A DNA stretch of 13,987 nt. It comes from Acanthamoeba castellanii str. Neff. Its lineage: Eukaryota > Discosea > Longamoebia > Acanthamoebidae. The stretch is from the NCBI RefSeq assembly GCF_000313135.1, contig NW_004457261.1:28336-42322 (forward strand). The letters run 5' to 3'. Below the pieces are notes generated by a model. The model was not told where the DNA came from. It saw only the letters and a list, made by a program, of their open reading frames with translations, and did no database searches. Numbering within the stretch: position 1 is the first letter of the stretch; each line of letters starts with the position of its first letter. The position numbers were made by a program, and so were the translations under genes. Of this stretch, positions 1 through 13,987 are shown in pieces.

Positions 1-788
1 GCCTGCTGCTGGGGCGGGTACTGCTGGTACATGTAGCTCTGCGGCTGGGGCTGCTGCGCGTACTGCGGCACAGCGGGCTGGTGATGATGGTGCACGGTGG
101 CGTGACCGCCGCCCACCACAGCGTAGGTTCGTCGGCGGCGGGCAGCGCGCACGCAGAGGCCCACGCAGGCGCTGCATGCGCCCACGCCCACGACGACGAC
201 GGCCACGATGACAAGAATAGCGCCCGTGCTCAACGCTGCACAATTAGGGAAAAAAGTTGTTGCATGGTTAGCTAAACTTGTTTGCAACACATCTTTCATT
301 ACAATATATTGCACAATATATTGCACGTAAGTAGTGTACGTACTGCAGCTGGAGGAGACGCAGAGAACGCCACCGAACGAGCACGAGCAGTCGTACTGTA
401 CGCAAATAAAAAAGAATAAATAATAGAAAGTTAGCATAGTGTTCCAGATAAAAAAACTAGAAGTTGAGGAATGAAAGATGAACATATTGGGGGGGGGGTG
501 AGAAGCGCGCACGTTGCAGATGAAGTTGTCGGAGCGGCCGACGACGCACTCGCAGTAGTCCTTGCTGTTGATGTTCGGGTACTTGTAGGGGCAGTCGGAG
601 TTGTCGGTGTCGCGGATGGTCATCGCGTCCTTGGCCCCTCCGTCGATCGAAGTCACCGCCGGACCTGTGCCGTAGCTGTTGTTGGTCTGATCTTGCCTGG
701 CGACATTGTTGTTGTTGCTGTTGTGGTCTCCGGTGAGAGGTGAAAGAAGGAGCGAGATGGCGATGAATATCGAAGCCAGGCCTTGCAT
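1..788 (-). CDS. Cysteine-rich type I membrane protein, 5' part (3' end off the window)
   Basis: The exons are 788-513, 395-344 and 235-1, with introns 512-396 (GTGCGC...CAG) and 343-236 (GTACGT...CAG). I do not recognise the family. The start MQGLASIFIA opens a hydrophobic signal peptide ending near residue 20. An Asn/Gln/Ser-rich linker follows (about 21-60), then a compact domain with eight cysteines that starts at SDCPYKYPNINSK, contains the CECVVGRSDNFIC motif, and ends after the 52-nt exon 2 (YDCSCS...SSSC). Exon 3 encodes a Gly/Val/Ala/Cys membrane helix, an RRRR stop-transfer signal and a cytoplasmic tail with HHHH, then Pro/Gln/Tyr-rich sequence (PQYAQQPQPQSYMYQQYPPQ) still open at base 1. 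The complete paralogue at 12493-13156 has the same exon count, the same intron phases and an identical 52-nt middle exon length, which supports the model. The two tails differ: this one is longer and PQ-rich. Secreted topology is inferred; the ligand is unknown. Confidence 0.85.
   Translation of the reverse strand, partial: MQGLASIFIAISLLLSPLTGDHNSNNNNVARQDQTNNSYGTGPAVTSIDGGAKDAMTIRDTDNSDCPYKYPNINSKDYCECVVGRSDNFICNVRASHPPPNMFIFHSSTSSFFIWNTMLTFYYLFFFICVQYDCSCSFGGVLCVSSSCSTYTTYVQYIVQYIVMKDVLQTSLANHATTFFPNCAALSTGAILVIVAVVVVGVGACSACVGLCVRAARRRRTYAVVGGGHATVHHHHQPAVPQYAQQPQPQSYMYQQYPPQQQ
236..343 (-). other. Intron 2 of the cysteine-rich membrane protein gene, holding a 12-bp tandem repeat
   Basis: This 108-nt intron starts GTACGTAC and ends GTGCAG on the minus strand. 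It is much more A+T-rich than its exons. It contains two perfect head-to-tail copies of acaatatattgc at 301-312 and 313-324; each unit holds the 10-bp palindrome caatatattg. The corresponding intron of the plus-strand paralogue (12917-12992) lacks the repeat, so it arose or was lost after duplication. Confidence 0.8.
301..324. repeat. Two perfect 12-bp tandem copies of a palindromic AT-rich unit
   Basis: The unit acaatatattgc occurs twice without mismatch, followed by a further 'ac'. The core caatatattg equals its own reverse complement, so each copy can form a small cruciform or hairpin. It lies wholly inside an intron. Replication slippage would be a sufficient origin. Confidence 0.85.
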
Positions 789-1088
789 CTTGTGAGCGGT
801 TGTTGTTAGGTCCTTGACGTCTTGCAAGCGGAGGAAATAAGTTGCAGTGGTACTCTCCTCTTACTCCTCCATTTAAGGCGCCACCGCCTTACTAACTCCG
901 AAATAGAGGGGAAAGGCCAATGGCCATTCCAAACTTTAAGTGAAACAAGAGACGGACAAATCGGAGGAGGTGTTGAGGCTCAATAAGAAGTGCAGAGCGA
1001 AGCAAACAGAGAGGTTGCAACAAGAAGTTGGGAACCGTTGGCTGTTGAAGTTCAAAAAAGAACGAAAACTCTCTCAGCTAAACTACAT
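789..1088. other. Intergenic: promoter of the cysteine-rich gene and 3' flank of the histone-fold gene
   Basis: Both flanking genes run on the minus strand, so this 300-bp stretch should hold the 3' UTR of the histone-fold gene (near 1088) and the promoter of the downstream cysteine-rich gene (near 870). Besides the CArG/TATA-like element there is a ggccaatggccattcc block at 916-931 containing a CCAAT pentamer and an ATGGCC palindrome core. No AATAAA is visible on the minus strand just after the stop at 1089. No open frame with coding character was found. Confidence 0.5.
869..878 (-). promoter_or_regulatory. CArG-type/TATA-like element before the minus-strand cysteine-rich gene
   Basis: The minus strand reads CCTTAAATGG, an exact match to the MADS-box/SRF consensus CC(A/T)6GG, about 81 nt before the ATG at 788. 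The following GAG triplet is also present after the TATA box of the plus-strand paralogue (CTATAAAAGGAG at 12421-12432), so the two elements look like the same ancestral core-promoter site. It could act as a degenerate TATA box, an SRF-type site, or both. No binding evidence is available from sequence alone. Confidence 0.45.
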
Positions 1089-4000
1089 TCACCCTCGCGA
1101 GGGTGTGCGTGTGTGCGTGTGCGGGTCGTGCGGTGCCGCGAGTCGCTGCTCGCCGCCGACGGCGGGCTTCGGCTTGCGCGGCTTGGCACTGCCCGGCGCC
1201 CCGCCGACGTTGGCAGCGGTTGCGCCCTCCTTGTCCTTGTCCTTGTCTTTCCTGCCCGGCGGCGTGGCGGGCGTGGCGGCGACGGCAGCAGACAGGGCTG
1301 GGTCCTTGTACTTGTCCTCGCGCTCCCTCCGCCGCTCGCGGTCCTTCTCCTTGTGCTTCCTCCTGCGCTCCCGCTTCTCGGCGACGGCCTTGCGCTCGGC
1401 CGCGGACGAGTCGTCGCTGCTGCTACCGCCGCCGCGTCGCCGACTTCCGGCCGTGTCGCTCCCCGAGCTGGCGTCCGAGCTGCTGCTGCTGGCGGCGGCA
1501 GCCGCCTCGGCCGCGGCGCGCTTAATCCGGCGGCGCTGCTTGGCGCTCGTCTTGTTTCGACGCTCGGCGGCGCTGTCGTGGTCAGTCGTGTCGCTGCTGC
1601 TGCTTGACGCGGTCTTGTTCCTCCTCTTTTGCTGCTGTTTGTCGCGCTTGTCCTTGCCTCCGCTGCCTGCGCCGCCCTTGCGCTGCTGCTTGCTGCCTCG
1701 GTCCTTGTCGGCAGCGAGGTCGGTATCGCTGCTGCTGGTGGTCAGTTTGTTGCCGCCGCCTCGCGCCTCCTTCTTCCGACGCTCGCGTGCTCGCTTCTCG
1801 CGCCGCCGCCGCTCCTTGTCGCTGTCGCTCGAGCTCAGCTCGCCCAGCTTCTCCAGCTCCTTCCGCTTCTTCTCCCTGCGCCGCCGCTTGCGCTCCTTTG
1901 AGTCGGGGCTGGTGTCCGAGCTGCTGCTGCTGCTGCCGCCGTTGTGGAGCTTCGCCTTCTCCTTCTCTTTTCGCCTCTTAGCACGCCTGCGCTCACGGTC
2001 GCTGTCGCTGCTCGCGTTGGCATTGGCACGCTGCTTCTCCTTCTCCTTCAGCCGCCGCTTGTCGCGGCGATTCTGTCGGCGCTTCTCTTTCTCGCTGTCG
2101 CTGGTGCTCAGCTCGCCCAGCTTGTCGAGCTCCTTCCGCTTCTTCTCGCGCATCTCGCGCCGCCTCTCGCGCTCGCTGTCAGTCTCGCTGCTGCTCGATA
2201 TCTTGGCCGACCGGCGCTTCTTCCTCTTCTCCCTGTCCCGCTCCTTCTTGCCGCGCCGCTTCGTGGTGGCCTCGTCGCTCTCGCTCTCGCTCGAATCGTC
2301 GCTGCTCGACGAGGGGTGGTGCTTTCGGCGCACCTTCCGCTTGCGGCGGATGCGCCTGTCCCTGTTCTCGCTGTTGCCTCCGCCACCACCGTCGCTGCTG
2401 CTGCTGCTGCTACTGCTCCGGTCCCGCCCGCGCTTGGAGCGGCTCTTCGAGCGGCCCTCGTCCTCGCTTCCGCTGCTCAGGCTGCGCGCGCTCCCGCGTC
2501 GCTTGCCGTTGTGCTTGCCCGGCTTCTTCTCCCTCTCCCTGTCGCGCTCCTCGCCGCTGCTGTGGGTAGTCGCTCCCTGCTGCTGATGCGTCGACGGCTT
2601 CTTCTTCCTCTTGCCCGCGGCGCCGTCCCTCTTCGTGTCGCGGTGGTGCGTCGGCGGCGGCTTTTTCTTCGTCGGTCGGTCGACCTCGCTGTCCGAGCTG
2701 CTGCTGACGGCCCCGCCGCTTTGGAGGTTCTTCTCGGCGCCCTGGCTCATCATCTGGTAGAACTGGTCGGTGCCGCTGGTCCGCTTCTCCTCGCGGCCCG
2801 CTTTGCGCTGGCCGCCCGCGCTGGAGGCCGAGCCGTCCAGTATCGCCGCGAGCGACGCCTTCCTCTCCGCCATCATTCGCTGGCGGAGAAGCAACACCTC
2901 GTCGGGGCCTGGCCTGCTGCTGCCGCTTTGTACGGTTGTCTCGTCGGCCGTCGGCAACAGGGATTCGACGACGGCGTCAGGGACCGACACGTCGTACGGC
3001 ACAAATTCGTCGTGGCCGCTGGTCGAGTCGGCACCGTAGCTCGGCCGACGCAGATCGACCACCCCGCCGTCCGTGGCATACACGAGGGCGCTGCCGGTCT
3101 CGGGAGATGTCGATAGCGGCGCGGGCGCGTCGGCGGAAATCTGGTCGCCTGCGACGGCTATCGAGTCGTCCGCGTTGAGTCCTTCGCCGACAGGCGCCGG
3201 CTTGCCAGCATCGGCACCACCCCGCGCGGCGGATTCCGACGGAGCCGTCGCTGCAGGCTGCTCGGCGGCGAGCAGCACTCGCTCCTCTTCGCGCTTGATC
3301 TTCTCCTGGAGGGCGAAATGGCTGTGCACCGCTTGGTTGGAGAAGGCGATACAATGCGTTGCCATGTTCGTGCCCTCCTGCTCAGGTACAACCAATCAAC
3401 CAAGCAACAACGAAGCGTAAGCTAACTCCCGTGCTCACGCATCTGCGCCGATCGAGGCCAGAAATAATCGAAAAAGGAGGAGGTGGTGGTGGCGGCGGGC
3501 AGTACCTGAGCGAACACGTGGCGAACCGCCATTTGGATCTCGCGCGAGGTGACCGTGTTGCGTTTGTTGTCGCGGGCGAACTGGGCGGCCTGAGGAGAAG
3601 AAGATGGAGGAGCGTGAGAAAGCGACCTTGGCTGCAGTCCAGGCAAAGACAAATTATGAGCTCACGAAGAGGAAAGTACCAAGGTTGCGATCCGGTCGAA
3701 GACGAGATTGACGATCTTGTTCATGACGACGAGACTCATCTTGGAGAGCGCGAGGTCGGGGTGGAGCTGCGCAGCCACGCGAGCGATGGCCTTGCGGTAG
3801 TCTGTCGACGGGTCGATGTGGAGGTGCGCTGGCAGCGCAGTCATGGCTGAGACACCGCTCCCCAGCGATGACGGGGGAAGCACCGGCGCGCTAGTCGTCC
3901 GGTCCGCGTCGGACAATATGAGATGCGCCGACGTCGAAGCCGACGTCGACGCCGTGGGCGGCGTGATCGAGCGATCGGGCTGCAGGTAGCGGTGCGGGGT

Positions 4001-6241
4001 GGGTCGATCCAGTCTCGGTGGACTGGGCGGCGGCGACTGGGACCGCGGCGAGGGCTGAATCGTAAGGCCGCTGGGCGGCGGTGACGGCGAAGTCGAGTGG
4101 ACTGCTGCGCTGCTGGCACGCTCGGACGGCGCGCTGCCGGGGGGCGATAACACGCGCAGGGGCGATCCGATCGGCATCGGGCGGGTCGCCGCGGTAAGCG
4201 TCGGCGAGTACGACTGCGAGCGCGGAAGCGCCAGGTCGTCGTGCATCGTGACGAACGTCTCGCCGCCCAGCTCCTCGGCGCTGAACGGGTGCTGCTGCTG
4301 CTGGTAGAGGTGCAGCAGCTCCTCCTCGGCCTCCTCGTCGTCTGCGTTCGGACCCACCATTCCCAGGTAGATGGCCCACGGCTCGTCTTCCATGGGCTGC
4401 TCCACCTCAGGCAGCGGCGGCTCTTCGCGTTGCAGTTCGTCGGTGGCCACGGGGGATGCCCCTGCGGCGTCGGGCTCCTCGAAGAGGATCTTGGCCAGCG
4501 TAGAGCGGGTCAGCTTGATGCCGGAGCCGGCGCTGGCCGGTCCCGACGCTGCGACGTCGGCCGCCAGCGGTTCGGTGTCGGAAGCACCCGGCTCGACGGC
4601 AGCTTCGGTGTCGGCCTCGGCATCGGCGGTCGCGCTTGAGAGTTCTTCGGTCGTGCTCGGGAGTGCCCCTGCGGCCTCGGGCTTGTCGCGTCGAACGCGC
4701 TGGGGCGTGAGAACCTGGTCGAGGATACGCGGGACGCCCTCGCTCAGGTGCCGATAGAACTCGCCTGAGTCCTCACGGTCAGGCTGGGTCCCGCCGCCGC
4801 CAAGAGCGCTGGCACCGCCCGACACCTTGCGTGCGCTGCCGCCGCTCGATTCCGCTTCCACAGGGGCGCTGCCACTGGAGACGACGATGAGCGCGGTCGA
4901 TGTGGGTGGTGCACCAGTCACCTGGCCGAGTGCTAGGTCGCCCTCCTTGGTCTTTCTCTCCAGCGAGCGTCTCTTCTCACGAAGCTCCTCCTTGGCGGCC
5001 TTGCTCGCCGCCTTGCCCTCCCTGCTTCCGGCCAGCGGCTTCTTCTTCGCCACGGGCGTCGCGGGCGTTTCGCTATCGCTCCCGGCTCCGTTTTCGTTCT
5101 TTTCCTTCGCTCTTTCGGCCTTGATCTTCTCCTCGCGCTTGTCGCGCTTGCGCCTCTCCTCGCTGGGCGAAATGTTCTTGCGCACCTCACGCCGCTTCTC
5201 CCGGTCCTTGTCGCTTCCGCCGCTCTTGTCCTCGTCTCCGTCTTCGACCTTCTGTTGCTGCTGCAGCGGCGGCTCGTCTTTATCCCTCTCCTTCTTTTTC
5301 TTCGACTCTTTCCTTTCGCTTTTCTGGTCGAACGTGGCCTGCTCCTCCTTATCGTTGTGCTGCTGCTGCTGCTGTTGCTCGGAGTCCCGCTCCTTCTCCT
5401 TCTCCCGCTTCTTCTTGCTCTCTTTCTGCGGCTGCAGCACCGCCAGTTGCTCGATCGGCTGCTTGTCGTCGCTGCTGCCGTCGGGGAGGCCGCTGGTGAC
5501 GATGGTCGTGGCGACGGCGGCGTCCCTGTCGCGCTTCTTGCCGATGCTCAGCGTTTCGTCTTCGCTCTCGGCGTAGCGCACGAACGTCTGCGCCCCCACC
5601 TCGTCCGCCGGACCCGGAGCTCCCTTGTGGCCGATGCGCGCCAGTGACGACGCAATCCTCTCGCGCTTCTTCCTCTCCTTTTCCTTCTCGCTCTCGGCCG
5701 GCTGCTGCTGCTGCTCGGAGCCGCGCTCCCACTCTTCGGCCTCCTCCTGCTTCTCGCGTTCCTTCTCGCGCTCGCGCTCCTTCTTGGCTTCGGCCTTGTC
5801 GCCCTTCTTCTTGCGCTTCTCCTCCTCCTTGGCGCGCTTCTTGGCGTCCTTGTCCTCCTTGTCCTTCCGCTTGGCCTCCTTCTCGCGCCTCTGGAGATCG
5901 ATGTAGTCGTCGAAGGAGCTGGAGGCGTACTGGCCGCCGGCGAGCGTGAGATCGGCCTGAGGATCGCCGCCCGTATGCGGCACATCTTCGTACGACCTGG
6001 AGAGATGACGCGAGATGTTGCCCCAGTTGGTGCCCAGCTGCGGGACGTCGGTGGGCGAGTTGCTGGGAGGTGAGGCTGAGATCTTGTTGTTGTTGCTATT
6101 TCGCGCCTTCATCTTGCTCATGGGGTTGATTGAGCTGAGTGACGATGCGAGAGACGATTTCCTCTTCACCTTCGCGAGGGCATTTCGGTCGGGCGTGAGG
6201 AGTTGGTCCGTAGAATGTGAGCTGGGTGGGGCGGCAGACAT
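1089..6241 (-). CDS. Giant histone H2B-fold protein with long charged N- and C-terminal arms
   Basis: The exons are 6241-3680, 3589-3506 and 3377-1089 (introns of 90 and 128 nt, both GT-AG and phase 0), giving 1644 residues. A clear H2B fold spans residues about 814-908 and crosses all three exons. Exon 1 ends with helices alpha-1/alpha-2 (HPD, then VVMNKIVNLVFDRIATL). The 28-codon exon 2 carries NKRNTVTSREIQMAVRHVF. Exon 3 opens with an alpha-C-like helix (MATHCIAFSNQAV). The N-terminal 810 residues hold a Lys/Glu/Arg-rich region with Gln runs (about 118-440), an acidic patch (about 619-655) and a Ser/Thr-Pro-rich segment (about 670-800). The C-terminal 735 residues are Ser/Asp/Arg/Lys-rich with many SSSDSD-type acidic serine clusters and basic stretches. 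H2B normally dimerises with H2A in the nucleosome; whether this protein does so is inference. Core H2B proteins are about 120-130 residues, so this is more than tenfold longer. It could instead be a histone-fold scaffold in a nuclear complex, but the NKR-T-TSREIQ-AVR signature is specific to H2B rather than TAF or NF-Y folds. Confidence 0.8.
1795..2165 (-). repeat. Internal 91-codon-offset duplication in the C-terminal arm of the H2B-fold protein
   Basis: The peptide motif KKRKEL(D/E)KLGELS(T/S)SDS(E/D)KE occurs twice, encoded around 2160-2090 and 1890-1815. The near-identical DNA string starting gctcagctcgcccagctt is found at 2106 and 1833, exactly 273 bp (91 codons) apart. The intervening sequence shares the same Arg/Lys/Glu/Ser composition. 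This indicates expansion of the arm by in-frame tandem duplication rather than random drift alone. Confidence 0.7.
3300..3802 (-). other. Split H2B histone fold (three exons, two phase-0 introns)
   Basis: The domain-coding segments are 3802-3680 (residues 814-854), 3589-3506 (855-882) and 3377-3300 (883-908). Introns 3679-3590 (GTACTT...CCTCAG) and 3505-3378 (GTACTG...GAGCAG) interrupt it. Without splicing each piece ends quickly in stops, and splicing restores an unbroken helix pattern with H2B spacing. Conserved H2B landmarks are HPD, MN-x-IVN-x-VF-D-RIA, NKR-x-T-x-TSREIQ and AVR. Departures are the missing PGEL turn after alpha-3, replaced by AQEGTN; a Cys in alpha-C; and no Lys at the position equivalent to the ubiquitinated Lys of canonical H2B. 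Confidence 0.88.
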
Positions 6242-9105: not shown

Positions 9106-10113
9106 ATGTCGAAGCAGCAGCCGAAGCAAGAGGAGGTCTCGACCGTCGCGGGCTACAAGGACAAGCTCGTCGGTGGCGTCAAAGAGACCGTGGGCAGCCT
9201 GCTCGGCGTCGAGCGGCTCGAGAAGGAGGGCCACAAGCAGAAGGAGAAGGGCGAGGCCGAGCTCAAGGCCGCCATGGCCCAGCAGCGCGCCATGGGCGAC
9301 CGCAGCCGCGAGCAGCATGAGAAGGGCAAGGGCCGCCTGGGCGAGGAAGAAGAAGAGGGCGAGCTCAGGGTCGACTCCTATGTCTTCCTCAAGCGCCAGG
9401 CCGTCCTCTCCGAGCTCCAGCGCATGGGCGGCTTCGAGCGCCAGAGCCTTCGCCTTCGTCATGTCGAGCCGCGCGAGCCCGACGTGAGGAAGTACTTCTC
9501 CCCCAAGGGCCAGGGCGAGAGGTGGCAGCAGTTCAACCTCAAGAGGGTGGACATGAAGCCGCTACTCGAGGACATCCGCCAGAAGCGCACGAGGAAGCCG
9601 CTCGTGCACGTCAACACGGTCGAGAAGGGCCTCATGAACAACATCAAGCTCACCAAGGAGGACTTCCGGCTCAAGCGCGACCAGCAGCGCCTGCCCAACC
9701 TGCTCAGCGACATCAGGCGAGCCGACAACATCAAGCGCCTGAAGAAGATCAACAGGCAGGACGTCCGTGATCGATCGGCGCCCAGGCTCGACCTCCTCAA
9801 GGGCCTCAAGGCGCTGCACCAGCAACACGACGTTCTACTCAAGGAGGTGGCGGCGCCGCCCAAGCTGAAGCACGTCGAGACCAAGGACAAGACCAAGCCC
9901 AACCTCTTCTTCGACAAGAACGTCCACGTCCACAAGTTCGAGAAGGGGCCGCTGCTGGACGAGGTGAGGAAGGGCTTCAAGGCCAACGCCAAGCACGTCG
10001 AGACCAAGGACAAGTCCAAGCCCCTCATCGAGAAGGACTTCCACCTCAAGAGGTTGGACAGGCAGGGCTTCCTCGCCGAGGTCCGCCAGGGCACCCAGCT
10101 CAAGCACGTGTAA
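9106..10113 (+). CDS. CsbD-like domain fused to WH2/beta-thymosin-type actin-binding repeats
   Basis: This is an intronless frame of 335 residues starting MSKQQPKQEE. Residues about 17-53 (YKDKLVGGVKETVGSLLG, then LEKEGHKQKEKGEAE) match the CsbD-like pattern of a helix with GK-x-KE-x-VG spacing and a second helix EG-x4-KGEAE. That domain is best known from bacterial stress proteins. The rest holds about six divergent WH2/beta-thymosin-like units of the form F-x-LKR-x5-LL-x-DIR-x5-K-x-L-x-HV-x-T: near 95-126, 143-181, 187-222, 226-267, 274-308 and 312-335. Units 4 and 5 end LKHVETKDKTKP and AKHVETKDKSKP, the LKHVET-type motif of actobindin and beta-thymosins. G-actin binding is inferred from these motifs. 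Codon use is extreme (AAG, CTC, GAG, CGC almost only), which implies high expression. The last unit stops right after LKHV. A paralogue begins at 13470. Confidence 0.85.
   Translation: MSKQQPKQEEVSTVAGYKDKLVGGVKETVGSLLGVERLEKEGHKQKEKGEAELKAAMAQQRAMGDRSREQHEKGKGRLGEEEEEGELRVDSYVFLKRQAVLSELQRMGGFERQSLRLRHVEPREPDVRKYFSPKGQGERWQQFNLKRVDMKPLLEDIRQKRTRKPLVHVNTVEKGLMNNIKLTKEDFRLKRDQQRLPNLLSDIRRADNIKRLKKINRQDVRDRSAPRLDLLKGLKALHQQHDVLLKEVAAPPKLKHVETKDKTKPNLFFDKNVHVHKFEKGPLLDEVRKGFKANAKHVETKDKSKPLIEKDFHLKRLDRQGFLAEVRQGTQLKHV
9154..9264 (+). other. CsbD-like segment
   Basis: This encodes residues about 17-53. The same motif is found in the paralogue (VKDKLVGGVKQTVGHLL at residues 29-45 there), the best-conserved N-terminal stretch of the pair. 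The identification rests on pattern only (KDK-x-GG-x-KE-x-VG followed by E-x-EG-x5-KG-x-AE). An amphipathic helix of the LEA type is the alternative. Confidence 0.6.
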
Positions 10114-10510: not shown

Positions 10511-12278
10511 ATGCCGAACCTCTACGCAGGGGTGCCGGCCCACCGCTGGGTGACTCTGATAGCCTTCTTCGTGGTGCTGCTTGCAGACGCGGCCCTGGCC
10601 TCCACCTCAGCACCTTCAGCCTCCAACAGCTGGCTCTACCAGGCCAAGCGACCACTCATCCTGGCACACCGCGGCTCGCGCTACCTCAACCCAGGTACTT
10701 GCGCACACAACTCCTCTTCTCGAGTCGATTGGCGTTGAGGGCCTCTGTGTCGTGCGTGTGTCGTGTGTGTGTCATGTGTTGATTATGTCTGCGCAATGCA
10801 GAGAACACACTGCCCGCGTTCCACTCAGCGCTCCAGCTTGGCGCTGACGTGCTCGAGATGGACGTACGCCTCACGGCCGACAATCGCCTGGTGGTGTTCC
10901 ACGACGAGAACGTGAATCGAACGACCGAAGGCTACGGGCTCGTGCGACAGAAGACCCTCGCGGAGATGCTCGCGCTCGACGCCGGCTACCGCTACACGCA
11001 CGACGGCGGCCTCTCCTACCCATACCGCGACGGAGGCGTCGCTGGCCCGCACCCGCTTCGCGTGCCCACCTTCGACCAGTTCCTCGACGCGTTCCCCGAC
11101 CAGTGGATCAACGTGGAGATAAAGGACCGCGAGCGCCTGGCCGCGGAGCTCACCTGGCAGCACCTGCAACGGCAGCCGAACTACTCGTCTCGATTCGTGG
11201 TCGCCAGCCGGTACTGCGACATCATCGACCACTTCCGAAACATCACGCAGGGCGCCATCGCCACGGCTGCCTGTGAAACCGAAGCCACCAACATGCGGAT
11301 CAAGGTCGTTGTCCATCCTTAGTCCCCACCGCACCCTCCACGTGGGCTCACTGAAGAGGTCATGTCCTACTCAATTCTGATCGCTGCCATCGATGTGTGT
11401 ATCTCCAATCACACCTGCACAGATACTGCTTGGGTCTGCGGCGAACACGCTCGACTATTGCCTAGGCCTCAGGCTGCCGCCGGCCGAGGTCTACCAACTC
11501 CCAACAAGTAAGTACCTACACGCTACGCCTGCTGCTTCTGCGTAGATAGTGATTGGGGGGGCACAGCTGTGAAGCGCTCGGCCAGTGTGACTGATAACGC
11601 GTGCGCGGGCCGGGCTTGAAATGAAGTTGTGGGCGGTTTCCCAATGGAAGGGGCGGAGATGATTGACTATCTGCATTCCATCGGAGCCAAGGTCCATTAC
11701 TGGGTGGTCAACGACGCGCGCTACATGCAGCGATTGCTTGCCAAGGGTGCGTTGACCCCACAGCAACCTCGCACTACACCGGTGGGTGGCCCATCGCAAC
11801 TAGTTAGTTCTCACCCGCTCTCAGGCATCGACGGGCTCATCACCGATCGGCCCGACGTTGCCTATGCGGTCTGGCAGCAAATGGGATACGACATGCCTGG
11901 TGCTGCTCTTGACTCAGCTCAAGCGGACGGTCTAGGTACCCCGTGCATCGTCACTTCTTTTCAGGTTCCATGCTCTGGGCCGGGCTGACTACCCTCTGTT
12001 CTCTCTCAGTTGGGTCGAACCAACAACAACAACAGCGGTGGCGCCACTTTGAGCCGCTGGCGCAGGCGGAGGAGCTGCACGAGTGCGTGACCCTCGTGTG
12101 CCGCTACTTTGCCTTCGGTCTGGGCGCCGTCTACTTTCTTGTCTTCGTCATCCTCGCGCTGCTGGCGTTGGCCGTCTGCCTGGCGAGGCGGCTCTACAGC
12201 GCCATACGGACGACCCGCAAGCGATCGTCATCGTCGTCATCCACCAGTCGAAGTGGCAACAAAGTGAAACGCGCTTGA
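10511..12278 (+). CDS. Membrane-anchored glycerophosphodiester phosphodiesterase (GDPD family)
   Basis: The exons are 10511-10694, 10802-11304, 11423-11507, 11627-11746, 11825-11935 and 12010-12278, giving 423 residues. A signal peptide (about 12-31, VTLIAFFVVLLADAALA) is followed by the GDPD TIM barrel: HRG at 53-55, ENT at 62-64, GADVLEMDVRLT with metal ligands E80 and D82, VVFHDE with H95, INVEIKD with E167, then YWVVND and GIDGLITDRPD near the barrel end. The HRG and HD histidines are the family's acid/base pair. A Gln-rich linker leads to one C-terminal membrane helix (about 367-393, FAFGLGAVYFLVFVILALLA) and a short basic Ser-rich tail. The enzyme should hydrolyse glycerophosphodiesters to glycerol-3-phosphate and an alcohol, with the barrel facing the lumen or outside. 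The ATG at 10511 was chosen because it puts the hydrophobic segment at the N-terminus. The exon 4 acceptor (11626, ATGAAG) has a poor pyrimidine tract and is the weakest join. Confidence 0.85.
11936..12009 (+). other. Last intron of the GDPD gene, with a second in-frame AG at 11963-11964
   Basis: The 74-nt intron runs from GTACCC to CTCTCTCAG. An earlier TTTTCAG at 11958-11964 would also keep the frame and add 15 residues (GSMLWAGLTTLCSLS in place of the direct join). That would make a 29-nt intron, below the usual minimum for spliceosomal introns, so the downstream site is preferred. Confidence 0.6.
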
Positions 12279-12492: not shown

Positions 12493-13156
12493 ATGCAGGG
12501 CTTGGCGTCAGTGTTCATCGCTCTCTCACTGCTTCTTTCTCCTCTCACCGGAGACCACAACGGCGCCAACAACTCGGCCAGCGATGGCGCAATGACGCTG
12601 AGGAAACAGGGGGAGCACAGCAACAGTGGCTACTACTCCAAGGGACCCGTGTTGAGCTCTATCGAGGGCGGAAGCAAGGGCGCGATGACCATCAGGGACA
12701 ACGACAACTCTGACTGCCCCATCAAGTACCCGGACATCAACAGCAAGGCCTACTGCGAGTGCGTCGTCGGCCGCTCCGACAACTTCGTCTGCGATGTACG
12801 TGCTTCTCACCTTGCATCCCCCCATGCATCAAGTCTTGGTGCTGACATTTGTTTTGGTGGGCAGTACGATTGCTCGTGCTCTTTGGGCGGAGTGTTGTGC
12901 ATCTCGTCGAGCTGCAGTACGAACCCCTCTCGACCCACTTTCAACTCCCCCACTCACCGTCGTTCACCCTAACTTTGATGTCCTCTTGGCAGCGCTGAGC
13001 ACGGGAGCGATCCTGCTCATTGTGGGCGTCGTGGTTGGGGGCGTGGCCCTGTGCGTTGGAGGCACTGCCCTTTGCGTAGCCCTCGCCCGTCGCCGCCGCA
13101 GGAACAACTACACCGTGGTCGGCGCTGGACACCACCATCACCATCAACACTCCTAG
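12493..13156 (+). CDS. Cysteine-rich type I membrane protein with His-rich tail (complete paralogue of the 1-788 gene)
   Basis: The exons are 12493-12795, 12865-12916 and 12993-13156, giving 172 residues; introns are 69 nt (GTACGT...GGGCAG) and 76 nt (GTACGA...TGGCAG). MQGLASVFIALSLLLSPLTG is a signal peptide. An Asn/Ser/Gly linker runs to about 72. The cysteine domain has C75, C88, C90, C100, C104, C106, C113 and C118, beginning SDCPIKYP and containing CECVVGRSDNFVC. The membrane helix is about 123-150 (GAILLIVGVVVGGVALCVGG), followed by RRRRR and a short tail ending HHHHHQHS. Eight extracellular cysteines could form four disulfides. The family is unknown to me; surface receptor, adhesin or metal-handling roles are all possible, and the His-rich tail could bind metal. 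The start is fixed by identity with the paralogue (MQGLAS at both). Confidence 0.88.
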
Positions 13157-13469: not shown

Positions 13470-13987
13470 ATGGCTTCGACTGACATCAACCACAACAAGA
13501 AGAAGAGCACCGCCAACAAGAAGCTCGACGACGCCAAGCTCACGCTCGAGGGCGTCAAGGACAAGCTCGTGGGCGGCGTCAAGCAGACCGTGGGCCACCT
13601 GCTCCACAAGCCCGCCCTCGAGTCCACCGGCCGCCAGCAGCGGCTCAAGGCCGACGGCGAGCTCAAGCACCACCGCCCGCTGCAGGCCCTCACGCCGGCC
13701 CAGGTGGCCGAGGTGCACATGCGGCGCGAGGCCCTCATGGCCCACCTCGTGCGCACCGGCGGCTTCGCGCGCATGACCGCCACCGGTCGCCTGCGCCACG
13801 TCGCCCACGTGCGCGAGAGCCAAGTCGCCGAACTGTTCAACTCCCGGGAGCCGTTCGCGCTCAAGCGGTGGAACGTACGGCCGCTGCTGGAGGACATTCG
13901 CCAGTGCAGGACCGCCAGGCCGCTCGTGCACGTCGCCACCATCGAGAAGGGCCTCCTGCGCTCCATCAAGCTCACCGCCGACGACTT
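13470..13987 (+). CDS. CsbD-like/WH2-repeat protein, 5' part (runs off the right edge)
   Basis: The frame is open from ATG at 13470 to the end of the window (172 full codons, no stop). It starts MASTDINHNKKKSTANKKLD, with a longer Lys/Asn-rich leader than its paralogue at 9106. The CsbD-like stretch VKDKLVGGVKQTVGHLL is at residues 29-45. The WH2-like part begins with REALMAHLVRTGGFARM (about 86-102) and LRHV, then FALKRWNVRPLLEDIRQ and ARPLVHVATIEKGLLRSIKLT (about 129-169), which align residue for residue with FNLKRVDMKPLLEDIRQ and KPLVHVNTVEKGLMNNIKLT of the 9106 protein. The acidic linker EEEEEGE of the paralogue is absent and replaced by a shorter basic, His-containing stretch. Codon bias is equally extreme. 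Role: probable G-actin binding, by inference from the repeats. Confidence 0.85.
   Translation, partial: MASTDINHNKKKSTANKKLDDAKLTLEGVKDKLVGGVKQTVGHLLHKPALESTGRQQRLKADGELKHHRPLQALTPAQVAEVHMRREALMAHLVRTGGFARMTATGRLRHVAHVRESQVAELFNSREPFALKRWNVRPLLEDIRQCRTARPLVHVATIEKGLLRSIKLTADD

Follow-up and report, generated by a model that had tools for sequence, protein, structure and literature searches.

A histone fold of the H2B class in a 1644-residue protein

Core histones are small, tightly constrained proteins. Can a fold of the H2B class persist within a protein of 1644 residues, and what could it do there? This question is raised by a gene of Acanthamoeba castellanii str. Neff, located on the minus strand of a stretch of 13,987 nucleotides (C240:28336-42322, here called the window); the genome searched was the assembly of 38.4 Mb in 250 contigs. 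A profilin encoded there matches PDB 1acf, profilin I of Acanthamoeba castellanii, along 125 residues with two differences, in keeping with an Acanthamoeba or a very near relative as the host. Three exons, joined in frame, encode the 1644 residues and a stop codon (Table 1). The product is at least 10 times the size of histone H2B and contains a single histone fold at about residues 815–903, with an arm of about 810 residues before it (N-arm) and one of about 740 residues after it (C-arm). The original prediction for this locus had placed an uninterrupted H2B fold between two giant arms. Its splice sites, coordinates, protein length and both arms are borne out, as is the H2B class of the fold, and both introns are of the GT-AG type.

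A Pfam profile search of the spliced protein, which had been proposed as a check on the prediction, matched PF00125 at residues 815–877 (E 2e-11, 44.6 bits, curated cut-off 26.4). This was the only stretch matched, and no second histone fold was found in the chain; the excised domain scored 51.1 bits. Comparison with the PDB gave 178 sequences at E ≤ 1e-3. Among the best 60 of these 178, single H2B chains reached about 1e-14, and were outscored by H2B-H2A chimaeras and tandem H2B. A phmmer comparison with four histones of the same genome gave 59.4 bits for H2B, 15.6 for H2A, 11.6 for H2A.Z and 0.7 for H3; neither H4 nor the diverged H2B-like gene of C234 (see below) was among the four. Identity to the organism's own H2B was 42–44% over 87–88 residues. 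With the excised domain as query, the NF-Y/CBF, CENP-S and TAF profiles all stayed below their cut-offs (16.5 vs. 21.4 bits for the NF-YB/YC profile PF00808), and neither TAF12 (PF03847) nor a CENP-T family was among the 5 families at E ≤ 10, in a search whose filters drop most matches above about 0.1. A separate TAF12 match is encoded on C120. The sequence comparisons thus support an H2B-class fold, apparently from a strongly diverged H2B paralogue.

Residues kept and lost relative to H2B

The human H2B numbering and the segment limits used here are our assumption; the numbering agrees with D68 and E76 of the papers cited below. Across the fold, 37 of 86 positions are identical to the organism's own H2B (57% changed), with 5/13 in alpha1, 2/5 in L1, 13/30 in alpha2, 4/5 in L2, 8/13 in alpha3 and 5/20 in alphaC. 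The motif NKR-T of loop L2, whose residues we take to be DNA contacts, is present. The word "uninterrupted" in the original prediction needs correcting: the C-terminal helix is poorly kept and carries a 3-residue insertion under the preferred splice, the choice of intron 2 being uncertain. The positions of H2B D68 and E76 are both Leu. Further changes are Y83D, E113F and K120S, whereas E105 is kept under the preferred splice; given the roles that Y83, E113 and K120 presumably have in H2B, these changes would add to a loss of docking.

In H2B, D68 binds K91, T96 and Y98 of H4, and E76 binds Y72 and R92 of H4; mutants at D68/E76 give unstable nucleosomes (PMC12458469, preprint), and H2B E76K destabilizes the nucleosome (PMC7949156). 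The D68L and E76L changes thus predict weaker H4 docking, without implying selection for its loss.

The organism's canonical H2B, encoded by two genes on C94, shares with the giant protein the H2B-class fold, the NKRNT loop and SREIQ. It differs in having 163 residues, a single open frame and no giant arms, and in keeping D68, E76, Y83, E113 and K120.

Gene structure and coding signal

The N-arm and the C-arm each run without interruption into part of the fold within a single exon, so that only two short introns, both inside the fold, need to be removed. We scored all open two-intron combinations of the region 3860–3250 (introns of 40–250 bp, n = 6186) against H2B. Intron 1 as proposed is common to all 12 top-scoring models. 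Intron 2 is less certain: the proposed model scored 170, the top model (donor 3517, acceptor 3381) 171 and others 160–167, with donor 3517 and acceptors 3381 and 3375 as near-equal sites. These close alternatives mostly shift the length by a few residues, and one (score 167) by about 38. We prefer the proposed donor (CAG/GTACTG) as the more usual one. The best one-intron model (n = 183) scored 91, and shuffled H2B sequences reached at most 51 against the best splice model (500 shuffles).

The 4932 bases of coding sequence are free of stops. The GC fraction at the third position of codons is 0.83 in exon 1, 0.86 in exon 2 and 0.87 in exon 3. By a synonymous-codon score, the coding frame ranks first of six in both large exons (0.037 in exon 1, 0.057 in exon 3), with the other five frames negative. 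Both values lie below those of all 7 reference sequences that defined the score (0.12–0.71), and the score is -0.17 for the first 50 codons and -0.05 for the last 50. A control gene at 9106 has an antisense frame scoring 0.118, which calls for caution with this signal. We regard the codon usage as support for coding, not proof, and as compatible with a weakly expressed gene. Two antisense open frames, at 940–2586 (plus strand, 548 aa) and 1902–3116 (plus strand, 404 aa), overlap exon 3; as they score negative over it (-0.154 and -0.202), they are probably a by-product of repetitive GC-rich codons.

Table 1. Features of the giant H2B-like gene, in window coordinates.
Feature	Position	Strand	Description
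Exon 1	6241-3680, 2562 bp	-	ATG, N-arm residues 1-814, first half of histone fold 815-854
Intron 1	3679-3590, 90 bp	-	GT-AG, within helix alpha2; in-frame stop if unspliced
Exon 2	3589-3506, 84 bp	-	Residues 855-882: end of alpha2, loop L2 (NKRNT), alpha3
Intron 2	3505-3378, 128 bp	-	GT-AG, between alpha3 and C-terminal helix; in-frame stop if unspliced
Exon 3	3377-1089, 2289 bp	-	C-terminal helix region 883-903, C-arm 904-1644, stop
Histone fold alpha1, L1, most of alpha2	3680..3799	-	PDB comparison and alignment to own H2B
Diverged alphaC-like segment	3315..3377	-	5/20 alphaC residues shared with own H2B
N-arm E/K/R-rich mixed-charge blocks with poly-Q, residues 111-420	4982..5911	-	Composition
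N-arm less repetitive stretch, residues 501-700	4142..4741	-	Highly similar in both relatives; no match to a known domain
C-arm basic R/S/K-rich blocks, residues 1111-1580	1284..2693	-	Serine runs, duplicated KKRKELxKLGELSxSDSxKE unit

The two arms

The N-arm (residues 1–808) has a charged fraction of 0.33 and a net charge near zero, and the C-arm (residues 907–1644) a charged fraction of 0.42 and a net charge of +0.09 per residue. This composition fits disorder, and the arms are probably disordered. No Pfam family was matched in the arms of the spliced protein, nor at E ≤ 0.1 in exon 1, exon 3 or the two relatives described below (0 families in 4/4), and the stretches 501–808 and 883–1088 had no relative in the PDB. 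One stretch of each arm was searched against the genome for paralogues, and only the gene itself matched. A structure model of residues 501–854, built from three sequences, shows four helices, of which two coincide with alpha1 and alpha2.

Relatives and origin

A full-length protein search, restricted to candidates of 0.55–1.75 times 1644 residues, yielded none at E 1e-3 over region 800–940 among 1044 candidates. As this length range shuts out exon-wise fragments, exon 1 was searched alone, and at least two relatives were found among the best 7992 scored candidates: P0001 (816 aa) and P0002 (722 aa), matching the searched part at 98% and 92%; one might guess that they come from Acanthamoeba. 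Both have an N-arm that continues into the first half of the fold, and both end at intron 1, extending five similar residues past the last exon-1 residue, as does the window when read into the intron. The junction between arm and fold therefore exists in other sequences. P0002 keeps 53/54 of residues 801–854; along the arm it keeps 43/61 (a block that includes its unmatched start), 86/100, 94/100, 94/98, 87/93, 47/49, 67/69 and 76/80. The charged N-arm blocks vary more, but conservation in the 200 residues that precede the fold is almost as high as in the fold. For exon 3 (residues 1–230 of 758), no relative was present among the best 7994 scored candidates.

No second copy was found in the genome by a tblastn-like search, in which no more than 4 candidates were scored and the H2B-like gene of C234 was overlooked. 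The genome-wide Pfam search listed that gene, and not the one in the window, which is split by introns. Among viral contigs, no relative was detected with the domain, the organism's own H2B, a 3-row alignment or P0002 as query. Since the own H2B also matched nothing, the scans are not very informative on diverged viral histones and leave room for a viral origin. Prokaryote genome contigs searched with P0002 gave no relative.

The third, diverged H2B-like gene, apparently with introns, lies on the minus strand of C234 (L022, about 1443–1598, plus a downstream exon). It keeps VLKQVHPDTGIS and D68, has Q at position 76 by eye and is without the NKR loop; it may be another variant or a pseudogene. 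Diverged H3-like genes occur on C9 (L007) and C79 (L023), the latter with a long S/P-rich N-tail; one might guess that these are centromeric H3 candidates.

Comparison with known extended histones

The author of the original prediction knew of no described H2B with two giant arms. An H2B with a disordered region in its N-terminal tail is known as plant H2B.8, which shares the H2B fold (PMC9668745). According to that source, H2B.8 differs in having one insertion (93 residues in the printed scrambled version), in its restriction to flowering plants and in having been tested in nucleosomal arrays; as the host is not a plant, we did not file the giant protein as H2B.8. The mammalian variants H2B.L, H2B.W and H2B.N likewise have less than 50% identity in the fold; H2B.L shares changed putative H4 contacts, and the C-tail of H2B.W is longer in some mammals; giant arms go unmentioned in section 6 of PMC8857922. 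Sea urchin H2Bs with extended N-tails are described in the same paper. Viral histones may also combine a histone fold with extra sequence, of about 170 residues in two virus MAGs (PMC9145170), but the viral histones and doublets described are of the H3 class or have two folds per chain, whereas the giant protein has one. Among the titles and opening lines of abstracts listed from open-licence papers we found neither a giant Acanthamoeba H2B nor an H2B-class fold with two such arms, which is not a claim of absence from print; passages of PMC6450098, PMC8557863 and PMC8015243 contain no such protein. Disordered H2B tails, diverged H4 contacts and extended histones are thus already known, and the unusual features are the size and the second arm.

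Possible function of the giant protein

Our preferred reading, to which we assign a probability of about one half, is that the H2B-derived fold, paired with an H2A, anchors two disordered arms on chromatin and docks only loosely, or not at all, in a standard octamer. The fold would make the usual handshake with an H2A, and loop L2 would still touch DNA. With the H4-docking residues altered, and most of the C-terminal helix as well, the dimer would sit on chromatin loosely or on sub-nucleosomal particles. The mixed-charge N-arm and the basic R/S-rich C-arm may attract nuclear factors, RNA or DNA or raise their local concentration. The mechanism originally proposed, insertion of the dimer into nucleosomes, agrees with the kept L2 DNA loop; stable insertion is made less likely by Leu at both D68 and E76 and by the loss of E113 and K120.

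Several observations weigh against the preferred reading. Pairing with H2A is inferred solely from core residues that are retained. At D68, E76 and Y83, changes are no more frequent than across the whole fold, and with 57% of fold positions changed, the joint loss of D68 and E76 is unsurprising by divergence alone. In P0002 the fold (53/54) is barely better kept than the adjoining N-arm blocks (47/49, 67/69 and 76/80), which falls short of proving constraint on the fold itself, and exons 2 and 3 are without an outside relative. The model of residues 501–854 (mean pLDDT 43) is too poor to prove either disorder or fold.

It is possible, if rather doubtful, that the protein is a true replacement H2B, entering full nucleosomes with H2A while its arms condense chromatin in the manner of the H2B.8 tail. 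The H2B-class fold with its kept L2 agrees with this, and H2B is known to tolerate large C-terminal tags. In addition, nucleosomal arrays containing H2B.8 phase-separate via its disordered region (PMC9668745). The leucines at both H4-interface positions, E113F and the change or insertion before alphaC argue against it.

We consider it unlikely that the fold serves as a pairing module only, in a non-nucleosomal complex such as those of TAFs, NF-Y or CENP-T/W and perhaps with a partner other than H2A. In CENP-T, too, a long arm is attached to a histone fold, and the loss of H4 contacts and K120 would be expected here. Mammalian H2B.L, changed at putative H4-contact residues, is found in the sperm subacrosome, with chromatin possible in cell lines (PMC8857922). 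Against such a module stand the much stronger similarity to H2B proper and the profile results given above, with NF-Y/CBF, CENP-S and TAF below cut-off and TAF12 unlisted and encoded elsewhere in the genome.

A bolder reading, which we hold to be quite improbable, is that the protein represents a chromatin scaffold of a new class. Its histone fold, freed from octamer docking, would carry the mixed-charge arm and the R/S-rich arm, and each exchangeable dimer with H2A would bring to chromatin a condensate-forming brush of 1500 residues and connect it with RNA-processing bodies.

Finally, a gene-model artefact or pseudogene, in which coding pieces and a histone remnant do not form one mRNA, would fit the lack of exon 3 relatives, the stop of P0001 and P0002 at intron 1, the low codon scores of both large exons and the report of Talbert and colleagues that the putative eukaryotic histone fusions they examined seemed to stem from wrongly annotated splicing of one histone gene to its neighbour (PMC9145170), but it is very improbable, given arms contiguous with the fold in single exons, GT-AG introns, a stop-free coding sequence and an arm-fold junction that recurs in two relatives; the reported fusions differ because no second histone, and no neighbouring histone gene to mis-splice, is seen in the window and each arm is continuous with the fold.

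Other genes in the window

Two similar genes with a CsbD-like start lie at 9106–10113 and 13470–13985 on the plus strand, the first also with a WH2-like match; all three matches are below the Pfam curated cut-offs. Near the window ends, 3–806 (minus) and 12493–12966 (plus) encode similar small proteins in opposite orientation that share the near-identical start MQGLASxFIAxSLLLSPLTGDHN; no Pfam family was matched by the product of the latter. An intron-split glycerophosphodiester phosphodiesterase (GDPD) gene occupies 10798–11985 on the plus strand, with a match of 91.6 bits at 10798–11319 and one of 16.9 bits, below cut-off, at 11620–11985.

Implications

A fold of the H2B class that occurs naturally with some 810 and 740 residues on its two sides would show how much divergence H2B tolerates before it no longer pairs with H2A and chromatin. 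The giant H2B-like protein may separate, in nature, dimer formation from octamer docking. If it is nucleosomal, the principle of H2B.8, in which a disordered H2B tail condenses chromatin, would extend to an unrelated protist and to a much larger scale.
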